Positions 20,205-22,523 of a stretch of DNA of 59,061 nucleotides are shown here, one piece after another. The DNA comes from a virus. The DNA lies in the IMG/VR virus record IMGVR_UViG_3300045284_000289, positions 1 to 59,061 of that record. One strand, given 5' to 3'. A program made the position numbers and the translations under genes. The stretch's first letter is position 1; each line of letters starts with the position of its first letter. The notes beneath the pieces are model-generated. The model did not search any database. It worked only from the letters and a program-made list of their open reading frames with translations, and was not told the DNA's origin.

Positions 20205-21869
20205 TCAGAACGGCCAGCCGGCGTTCCTGCCCGCTTCCAACAGGGGGATCATCCGGAACGCCGCGTCCGTCAACCCACCGAACACGTGCGTGTTGTCCCG
20301 ACCACCGGACGGCGCGCTCCCCGCCCGGTACCCAGCCAAGTCCCAGATATAGAACGGCACGTCCCGAGACATCCCGCCGGGATGGAACTCACGGCCATAG
20401 CTGTCGTGAGCCTGCTCGTCGGTCACGATCACCACCCGGTCATGGCCGGCGTACCGCTCCCTGACCGCGCCCCAGGTGTTCGTGCCGCCCATGCCCCTGA
20501 ACTGTTGAATGATCGACAGCAGCGACTCGCCGCGCCGGACTTTCAGCGGCGCGCTGTGCGTGCCGTACTGCACCAGATCAGCCTGCTGGGCGCGGGCCGC
20601 CACCGCGGCACCGAACAGACCGGCCGCTTCGGCCCGGGACAGATCCGACTTGGCGGACAGGGATCCGAACATCGACCCGGACATGTCTACCAGGACCAGC
20701 GTCCGCCCCGGCAGCAGGGGAACGTTGCCCAGGGAGTGGTCGAGTCCCTGCTGCAACGCCCACGCCCACCGCAGGGACGGCGCGTTCTTGAACGCGGACA
20801 GGAACCGGAACGGGAACTGCCGCGACCGAGCGACCTCTTCGGGGTCGGCGAGTTTCGCCGCGACCTGCTCGGCGACCTTGTCGGACACACCGGCCTGGTC
20901 GAAGTTGCGGAGGTTCCGCAACAGCGCCATGTACCCCATGGTCGGGATGATCGCTTCCCACGCCACGGTGTCCATCGGCCCGTTGAGCCACCCGGCCAAC
21001 GCCTCCCACGTCATGCCGGCGTCACGCAAGTACTGCGACGCGTCCGGTCCCCACGAGCGGAGCATCGCCGCGCGTTCCCCCTGGGGGATGTCCATCAGGC
21101 GGGCGCGTTCCCGCAGGATCTTCAGGGTGTCGGGGATCGGGTTGTCCCGCCCGTGCCGCCGGTCGATCACGTGTTCGAACAGGTCACCCTGCGGCCGGCC
21201 GGTGTGGGGTGCGGCGTGCACCAGTTCCAGGACGTCACCGAACCGGAACGCATGCGCGCCGGTGTCGTACTTCAACACCGCCCGTTCGGTGTACAGGCGC
21301 CGGACCGCGTCCCCGATCCCGCGTTTGATCGGCTTGGGGACCGCGCGGCCGTAGCGGCGGGTCCAGTAGGCGAGCAGCTCGCCCGGCTCGTCGGCGCGCT
21401 GCAACACGGCGTCGATCACCGTGCGGGACAGGCCACGCCCCACCTGATGCTGTGGCGTCCCGTCGGGCGTGTGCTGCCCGGCGAGCGCGGTCACCGCGCG
21501 GGGCGCCTGCTGGGGGGCCTGGTCCAGGCCCAGTGTTTGGCGGGTCCGGACGAACTCGGCGGCACCAACCAGGGCGGCCGACCGCAGGTTGCCCTCACCG
21601 CGTAGCCAGGTGAGCATTCGGACGGTCCACTCCGGGTCTTCCACGGTCGCGGCCCGGACCAGCCGCTCGTACCGGTCGTCGCGGGCGTCGCTGGTCTCGT
21701 AGAACGTGCGCTCGCTGACCATGTTCGTGACGGCCAGGAGGAACAGTTCGGACTTGGTGTCCCGCAGGTACCCGGCACCGCCCTCGTGGGTGCGGATGGT
21801 GGGGGTGGGTTCGCTGGTGATCGGCGACGTGACAGCCGGTCGCGCGGCGCGGGGGGTGTTGAACTTCGA
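20205..21869 (-). CDS. rsr: TROVE-domain protein, Ro60/Rsr homolog, 554 aa
   Basis: Ro60 is a ring of HEAT-like helices that binds Y RNAs on its outer face and misfolded RNA ends in its cavity. Hallmarks seen: THEGGAGYLRDTKSELFLLA (about residues 27-46), ERTFYE, WLRGEGNLRSAALVGAAEFV, and a C-terminal vWA domain with the MIDAS motif DMSGSM and later VIVTDEQAHD. The length is normal for the bacterial/phage family. TTG 21869 is chosen because AAGGG precedes it and the protein then starts SKFNTPRAARPAV; upstream GTG/ATG codons lie next to the Y RNA A stem. The four RNA genes just upstream on the same strand strongly suggest an RNP. Confidence 0.93.
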   Translation of the reverse strand, partial: SKFNTPRAARPAVTSPITSEPTPTIRTHEGGAGYLRDTKSELFLLAVTNMVSERTFYETSDARDDRYERLVRAATVEDPEWTVRMLTWLRGEGNLRSAALVGAAEFVRTRQTLGLDQAPQQAPRAVTALAGQHTPDGTPQHQVGRGLSRTVIDAVLQRADEPGELLAYWTRRYGRAVPKPIKRGIGDAVRRLYTERAVLKYDTGAHAFRFGDVLELVHAAPHTGRPQGDLFEHVIDRRHGRDNPIPDTLKILRERARLMDIPQGERAAMLRSWGPDASQYLRDAGMTWEALAGWLNGPMDTVAWEAIIPTMGYMALLRNLRNFDQAGVSDKVAEQVAAKLADPEEVARSRQFPFRFLSAFKNAPSLRWAWALQQGLDHSLGNVPLLPGRTLVLVDMSGSMFGSLSAKSDLSRAEAAGLFGAAVAARAQQADLVQYGTHSAPLKVRRGESLLSIIQQFRGMGGTNTWGAVRERYAGHDRVVIVTDEQAHDSYGREFHPGGMSRDVPFYIWDLAGYRAGSAPSGGRDNTHVFGGLTDAAFRMIPLLEAGRNAGWPF

Positions 21870-21908
21870 CAAGGGGGCTCGACCCTTCAGGGGGAAGGGG
21901 AGCATGCG

Positions 21909-22070
21909 CACGTCAGGGATGGCGCCCGAGATCAGAGTCGGTGACGGTGACGAAGCGTGCTGCCGTTACACCACACTCGCCGAAGCGAGCGACGGGATTC
22001 GAACCCGCTCTACCCAATTAACAGTTGGAAGTAACCGTTGCCTACGCACCGAGCACCATCGTCTGACGTG
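21909..22070 (-). ncRNA. Y RNA A: Y-RNA-like stem with complete circularly permuted tRNA-Asn-like module
   Basis: Outer stem: GATGGTGCTCGG (22060-22049) pairs fully, counting G-U, with TCGGGCGCCATC (21929-21918), extended by CACGTCAG/CTGACGTG (22070-22063 with 21916-21909). Conserved CGGUGCG and GAUCUCGG flank it. Inside, in order: anticodon-type arm UCCAA-CUGUUAA-UUGGG with GUU at 22022-22020; 4-base variable loop; T arm GCGGG-UUCGAAU-CCCGU (22008-21992); acceptor 3' strand CGCUCGC; UUCG cap; acceptor 5' strand GCGAGUG; UG; D arm (21971-21957). This is a full cloverleaf opened between positions 26 and 27 and closed at the acceptor end. The 5' part overlaps the end of Y RNA B, so it is probably cut from a longer transcript. 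Confidence 0.8.
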
Positions 22071-22164
22071 TGCTGCTCCCGAGATCAAGGTCACCGGCGG
22101 CATTTTCTGTCTACCTTGGAAGGGTGGGTGAAGTAGCCGCTGGTTTCGCACCGGGTGCACGCCC
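22070..22164 (-). ncRNA. Y RNA B: short Y-RNA-like RNA without tRNA module
   Basis: CCCGG (22155-22151) pairs with UCGGG (22082-22078), with an outer GUGC/GCAC pair. An inner stem ACC-A-GCGGC pairs with GCCGC-C-GGU around a single mismatch. The conserved pieces CGGUGCG, UACUUC and CUUGAUCUCGG are all present, but the interior is only about 30 bases and has no T or D arm. It has its own promoter. It may be the minimal Ro60-binding form. Confidence 0.65.
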
Positions 22165-22165
22165 T

Positions 22166-22194
22166 ACGCTACACAGTCGGATAAGACCGCGCAA
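22166..22194 (-). promoter_or_regulatory. Promoter for Y RNA B (and A/Ro60)
   Basis: TTGCGC (22194-22189), 17 bases, TAGCGT (22171-22166), predicted start at G 22164. TAGCGT is also the -10 of both promoters near 57.7 kb. Confidence 0.7.
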
Positions 22195-22210: not shown

Positions 22211-22324
22211 GGAGTGTCCGAGGTCAAGACGGTGAGGGAGTGCTCGCCTACCGAGCTGTGGTCCGCATCAGACGGACCCCAGGAATCGAACCCGAAGTAG
22301 CCCTTACCCGCGCACCGGACACCC
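22211..22324 (-). ncRNA. Y RNA C: Y-RNA-like RNA with reduced tRNA-like module
   Basis: Outer stem GGGUGUCCGG (from 22324) pairs with UCGGACACUCC (ending 22211). Inner stem GGU-A-AGGG pairs with CCCU-C-ACC. The module holds a T arm (UCGGG-UUCGAUU-CCUGG), an acceptor-like hairpin (GGUCCG ... CGGACC) and a short D-like arm (GCUCG-GUAGG-CGAGC), in permuted order, with no anticodon arm. CGGUGCG, CUACUUC and CUUGACCUCGG match the other three RNAs. No clear own promoter; a TTGACT lies upstream without a good -10. Confidence 0.7.
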
Positions 22325-22333
22325 AACGCCACG

Positions 22334-22350: not shown

Positions 22351-22364
22351 GGAGTCAACTTGAT

Positions 22365-22511
22365 GCACCCGAGATCAAGATCAGCGACGGACTATCACAC
22401 CAATGCTCTACCAGGCTGAGCTACAGCCAGGGGTGCTACCCCTGGCGGGCGGGATTCGAACCCGCGACCCTTGGTTCCAGCTGAAGTAACCGTCACCCAC
22501 GCACCGAGTGC
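22365..22511 (-). ncRNA. Y RNA D: Y-RNA-like RNA with permuted tRNA-like module opened at the anticodon loop
   Basis: Outer stem GCACUCGG (22511-22504) pairs with UCGGGUGC (22372-22365). Inner stem GGUGACGG pairs with CCGUCGCU over 8 bp. Between them: ACCAA/UUGGU acts as an anticodon stem whose loop side joins the Y stem; T arm GCGGG-UUCGAAU-CCCGC (22465-22449); acceptor-like hairpin GCCAGGGG-UAGCA-CCCCUGGC (22446-22426); canonical D arm with CCUGGUA loop (22421-22405). This is the layout described for bacterial YrlA tRNA mimics. It is the first RNA of the cluster and has a promoter-like -10. Confidence 0.78.
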
Positions 22512-22517
22512 CCCCGC

Positions 22518-22523
22518 ACAATA
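22518..22523 (-). promoter_or_regulatory. -10 box of the Y RNA D promoter
   Basis: TATTGT (22523-22518) fits TANNNT and would start transcription near G 22512-22511, exactly where the outer stem of Y RNA D begins. The -35 is not convincing. Confidence 0.55.

Follow-up and report, generated by a model that had tools for sequence, protein, structure and literature searches.

A conserved short Y RNA with an anticodon-like hairpin, and a candidate four-strand switch in the Ro60 leader of an actinobacterial virus

Why should a single Ro60 gene be preceded by several Y RNAs, one of them stripped of its tRNA-like part? The question, which concerns what multiple Y RNAs per locus and Y RNAs without a tRNA-like part are for, is raised by the window that we analysed, a stretch of 59,061 bases (positions 1 to 59,061 of virus record IMGVR_UViG_3300045284_000289) from a virus of actinobacteria. 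Its minus strand carries a Ro60/Rsr gene (20205–21872), identified by homology and by profile matches to the TROVE domain (E values of 2.5e-19 and 2.8e-17, above the cut-off); alignment with relatives places the start codon, TTG, at 21872. Four Y units lie upstream of this gene and share its strand, in the order D, C, B, A, each containing the motifs CGGTGCG, YTACTTC and GAYCTCGG, and on the other side of the array the plus strand encodes a PadR-type regulator, a terminase and a portal protein. Covariance models place unit D, which has a tRNA-like module, at 22364–22514, unit C at 22213–22325 and unit A at 21921–22059, all on the minus strand; the module of unit A is a permuted one that includes an Asn(GUU)-type anticodon arm with the loop CUGUUAA. 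We note that unit A (22060–21921) is nearly a whole tRNA in circularly permuted form, with the Asn(GUU)-type anticodon arm, a T arm, an acceptor stem closed by UUCG, and a D arm. No Rfam family matched anywhere in the window at its gathering score, the weak match of unit D to YrlA (RF02553) reaching 38.9 bits where 69 are required, and a tRNA finder called no tRNA in the window. A nucleotide search of phage records gave no match, so relatives were sought by protein-guided searches.

Unit B (22074–22161, minus strand), a core helix topped by an anticodon-like hairpin, is a real Y RNA. The covariance model R1, which contains 15 base pairs and was trained on 26 short units from relatives and on no window sequence, recovers all four units of the window and ranks B best (22161–22074, 55.5 bits, E value 3.8e-10). 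Relatives show compensatory changes at 11 of the 15 pairs. Taken by itself, B folds with an unexceptional energy (z of −1.1); the support for the unit comes from conservation. The first-pass annotation had held that B keeps the shared Y motifs and has about 30 bases in place of the T, acceptor and D arms. Both points are correct: CGGTGCG, CTACTTC and TTGATCTCGG all lie within 22153–22079 on the minus strand, and about 28 bases separate the strands of the inner helix, with all three arms absent. Unit B lies beside a Ro60/Rsr gene, and its stem is conserved and bears shared motifs on either strand, as expected of a bacterial Y RNA. It does not have the three arms that define YrlA (RF02553), and it matches no Rfam family at threshold, YrlA included. 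The mature RNA probably extends from about 22159 to 22074 and is predicted to be bound by Ro60. We rejected a version of B that begins at 22164 and is closed by GGGCGTG/CACGTC, because R1 starts at 22161, because promoter geometry puts the start further in, and because CACGTC is part of the conserved outer stem of unit A.

Is B a peculiarity of this virus? We scanned the Ro60 loci of viral contigs and actinobacterial genomes, and short units, which lack the T, acceptor and D arms, occur commonly among them. Although related loci are not independent of one another, the commonest arrangement is long-short-long-Ro60, found in 48 of the 117 scanned loci and matched by C-B-A-Ro60 in the window, and 20 more loci have the order short-long. 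The penultimate unit is short in 80 of the 96 loci with usable leaders. Short units therefore form a conserved class, usually second to last before Ro60, whose hosts are Streptomyces, other actinobacteria and their phages; a match to the Ro60 gene is present in 167 of 295 sampled Streptomyces species. The abstract of a 2014 survey reportedly credits each species with one or more tRNA-like Y RNAs, a wording that already implies Y units without the module.

What occupies the place of the missing arms? B had been described as core-only. The T, acceptor and D arms are indeed absent, but at 22125–22113 the unit contains a tRNA-like anticodon hairpin, ACC-CUUCCAA-GGU, and its loop (22122–22116) is identical to the anticodon loop of Streptomyces tRNA-Gly(UCC). 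The full arm-like hairpin, CCACC-CUUCCAA-GGUAG (22111–22127, minus strand), forms four of the five stem pairs, contains one C-A mismatch and is displaced by 7 bases away from TACTTC relative to its usual place, and the minimum-energy fold of B favours a tetraloop inside it. Among 20,000 shuffles, 67 contain any real tRNA loop on at least three pairs. For B itself we regard the evidence for anticodon imitation as moderate.

For the class of short units, the evidence for anticodon imitation is strong. When the TTC of TACTTC is taken as the anchor of the stem, 63 of 96 distinct short units have a 7-base loop, compared with a mean of 4.0 and a maximum of 15 in 300 rounds of shuffled inserts. Within these 63 loops, U occupies position 33 in 62 cases, A is absent from position 34 throughout, and a purine stands at position 37 in 52 cases; the class has the 7-base loop, the pyrimidine-U33, the purine at 37 and the 5-base-pair stem of a tRNA anticodon arm. 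Thirty-two of the loops, 15 of them distinct, equal a real tRNA loop of the one Streptomyces genome that served as reference; the shuffles gave 0.007. Examples are CUUCCAA (Gly), CUUUCAA and CUCUCAA (Glu), UUCUGGU and UUUUGGU (Gln), CUGCAAA (Cys), CUGUAAA (Tyr) and CUCCAAA (Trp). Since neighbouring species are related, we used a stricter test in which triplets were permuted among loop flanks; it gave 15 exact matches against a mean of 9.0 for short units (P of 0.0026) and 20 against 11.7 for all units (P of 0.0003). A generic U-turn loop was ruled out as the cause of the 7-base pattern because position 35 is mostly a pyrimidine and because triplet and flanks covary. The loop may be a decoy for nucleases that attack anticodon loops or a sensor of them, or it may be a handle for tRNA enzymes.

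Long units, mostly first units, of Streptomyces also carry anticodon-like loops, and these mostly end in U36-A37-A38, unlike those of short units (for example, L019:2587, L021:2587 and L016:2610); they correspond to Met, Ile, Asn, Lys, Arg and Ser. U36-A37-A38 is the context of the t6A37 modification.

How would B be expressed? The first-pass annotation had pointed to TTGCGC-17-TAGCGT in front of it, and these letters are exactly as stated: a −35-like TTGCGC (22194–22189) and a −10-like TAGCGT (22171–22166) on the minus strand, separated by 17 bases. The site is also rare, being one of four matches on both strands of the whole window to the relaxed, actinobacterial-type pattern TTGNNN, 16–19, TANNNT, and a strict E. 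coli-type scan (9 of 12 matches) made no call there. Of 111 first units in relatives, 71 have TANNNT exactly 11 bases 5′ of the core; of 77 later short units, only 3, one of them B, have it near the core. Unit D, with TATTGT (22518–22523, minus strand) 11 bases 5′ of its core, and unit B, with TAGCGT at 12 bases, thus both have −10-like sites in the usual place, which makes B unusual among short units that are not first. The start had been put at 22164, a position that fails on geometry: TAGCGT ends at 22166, which would leave merely 2 bases, and the normal spacing of 6–8 bases gives 22160–22158, in agreement with the stem start of R1 at 22161. We saw no terminator between B and A. The predicted promoter would thus serve A as well as B, and probably Ro60, if the site is used as its letters suggest.

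The stretch from B to the start of Ro60 also holds strands that can pair in two ways. Strand 1 is the 5′ basal strand of B, UGCACCCG (22152–22159), placed by folding and by R1. Strand 2 (22063–22081) is the 3′ basal strand, CGGGAGCA (22081–22074), together with the spacer that follows. Strand 3, CUGACGUGCGCAUGCUCCC (21898–21916), lies 3′ of unit A and is complementary to strand 2, and strand 4, on the other side of a hairpin, contains the likely ribosome site GAAGGG (21888–21883); all four are on the minus strand. That hairpin, found by folding, pairs 21903–21894 with 21888–21877 over the ribosome site, and 6 bases of its 5′ arm also belong to strand 3. The 3′ strand of B (22081–22074) can therefore pair either with the 5′ strand of B or with 21904–21898 ahead of the Ro60 start, and the whole duplex between 22080–22063 and 21916–21898 is worth −32.4 kcal/mol. 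When B is folded (1:2), 3:4 is permitted, and 2:3 rules out both.

Mutually exclusive helices of this kind, as in a leader attenuator, are conserved. Relatives pair likewise with other letters, for example GGGGGUCC..AACAACUGCA with UGCAGUUGUU..CCCCC in L007 and GGGAGGAUAUGCA with UGCAUGUCUUCCC in L033, and compensatory changes occur along the 2:3 helix. Across 96 loci the helix has a mean energy of −30.2 kcal/mol, against −25.5 kcal/mol when tails are swapped between loci (the best of 100 permutations reached −26.3). Counts of 2:3 pairs are slightly above permutation (11.18 of 13, against a mean of 10.72 and a maximum of 10.91), a small excess that partly reflects likeness among Streptomyces sequences. 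In 92 of the 96 loci the outer strand shares bases with the strand that masks the ribosome site or makes a terminator hairpin; in some phages and relatives (L003, L004, L005 and L022), 3:4 resembles a terminator with a T-run. When strand 3 is blocked, the ribosome site becomes more open in computation, from 0.18 to 0.50 on average and from 0.0 to 0.29 in the window. The masking hairpin, predicted in the window and in relatives, beats shuffled upstream sequence only modestly (unpaired fraction 0.175 against 0.232, with 76% of loci below the control). The two states are 1.5 kcal/mol apart in the window; in 80 loci, the state with B unfolded is the lower in 95%, with a median gap of 4.3 kcal/mol, which protein binding could close. 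These helices also recast the idea that B overlaps the start of A and that the two may be alternative products. The bodies of the units are separate, the basal stem of B ending at 22074 and the stem of A beginning near 22060, but the 3′ strand and spacer of B do have a conserved pairing partner beyond A, at 21916–21898; the alternation is supported, in some 96 loci, as one of mutually exclusive pairings, which may act through processing or through control of Ro60.

We propose that B is a conserved short Y RNA whose hairpin imitates an anticodon arm and which forms part of a four-strand switch in the Ro60 leader; we put the probability of this reading at roughly 0.55. B would serve both as a Ro60 ligand and as the Ro60-sensing element of the rsr leader. 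With strand 2 paired to strand 1, B would be folded and able to bind Ro60, and strand 3 would be free to cover the ribosome site; with strand 2 paired to strand 3, B would be unfolded and the ribosome site exposed. Ample Ro60 would keep B folded and lower Ro60 synthesis, and scarce Ro60 may allow synthesis to rise, the net effect being negative feedback. Computation shows that B is a Y RNA of a conserved class, that loops in the class imitate anticodon loops and that the helices exclude one another; Ro60 binding, promoter use, regulation of Ro60 by B and the direction of that regulation are inferred. If the proposal is right, short units are a class of their own that combines a Ro60-binding stem, a single anticodon-arm imitation and a control element of the Ro60 gene, and Ro60 would be tied to tRNA surveillance or to tRNA-directed conflict between phages and bacteria. 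An extension that we consider improbable makes B a double sensor, in which Ro60 folds B and keeps rsr low, and an anticodon nuclease cuts the loop, unfolds B and turns rsr on. Phages and hosts would then raise Ro60 under tRNA attack, and the varied loop triplets would match the tRNAs at risk.

Could the same observations arise without a switch? B might act in trans as an ordinary Y RNA that has no tRNA module, cut from a D-to-A or B-to-A precursor, with B and A as alternative products; it would bind Ro60 as a spare ligand or gate, and the pairing before rsr would be a processing stem (for example, for RNase III) that frees unit A. Unit A lacks its own promoter and has an 8-base outer stem, CACGTCAG/CTGACGTG, and the linker ACAACTTCAT recurs between units in relatives and suggests a processed precursor. 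Such processing leaves unexplained why the outer strand overlaps the ribosome-site-covering or terminator strand in 92 of 96 loci and why the two states are so close in energy, and we rate this account as possible, at clearly less than even odds. The first-pass annotation had suggested that B may be separately controlled and core-only; on this view B starts at its own promoter and ends before A. The promoter-like site is of the right kind and in the right place; nevertheless, there is no terminator after B, unit A is reached within 14 bases, the top of B is the anticodon-like hairpin, and such sites are rare at the later short units of relatives (3 of 77). We find this view as doubtful as the double sensor.

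The anticodon-like loops, for their part, might be a relic of the tRNA halves that built the Y modules, with no current role, and it is true that long units are permuted tRNA halves which likewise have anticodon loops. A relic should decay, yet among highly similar short units the triplet varies while real tRNA loop combinations persist and A34 never occurs. Moreover, U36 is preferred by long hairpin-forming units (32 of 40) and not by short units (6 of 64; P of 1.6e-13). We therefore think it unlikely that the loops are relics, though slightly less so than that B is separately controlled. On balance we retain the proposal that B is a short Y RNA within a leader switch.

How does this arrangement compare with known systems? 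YrlA-type bacterial Y RNAs (Chen et al. 2014 and Wang et al. 2018, as cited in PMC8394870) likewise lie beside Rsr/Ro60 and are closed by a basal stem in which their two ends pair. Units D and A resemble YrlA (RF02553) in their module of T, acceptor and D arms; B differs in having none of these arms, in its anticodon-arm-like hairpin and in a strand common to the rsr leader. That Y RNAs adjoin Rsr in bacteria and phages and carry a tRNA-like module was already known (PMC8394870, PMC12282133). In the Salmonella locus rsr-yrlBA-rtcBA the Ro60 gene is accompanied by multiple Y RNAs, and inhibition of an anticodon nuclease has been suggested for the tRNA-like domain of Salmonella YrlA (PMC7790460). 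Mycobacteria and mycobacteriophages, like Salmonella and the window, have several Y RNAs per Ro60 gene, but in the literature searched we did not find an anticodon-like loop or a switch described for the Salmonella and mycobacterial loci. More broadly, our full-text searches, whose scope stopped short of the 2014 and 2018 primary papers, returned no report of Y RNAs with anticodon-like loops, nor any of an rsr leader that responds to Ro60. Attenuators in gene leaders and autoregulation of the ribosomal-protein type have the same opposition of 1:2 and 3:4 to 2:3 upstream of the gene for the binding protein; in contrast to these, the sensing hairpin here would itself be a Y RNA.

Finally, we note several features of related loci. 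A linker similar to ACAACTTCAT recurs between Y units in L003, L004, L005, L006, L007, L010 and Streptomyces loci, and near position 4284 of L013 a similar linker precedes an apparent true tRNA gene; it is possibly a shared RNA processing site. In the phages GiJojo (L187:2269–2343), VanLee (L190:2123–2194) and Frankenweenie (L191:2245–2335), annotated tRNAs, namely tRNA-Arg(cct), tRNA-Arg(tct) and tRNA-Pro(tgg), coincide with Y units just 5′ of Ro60, and these look like Y RNAs whose T arm and anticodon-like loop led to their being called tRNAs. The Ro60 gene lies within a large tRNA cluster in several Streptomyces phages (L187, L188 and L193).
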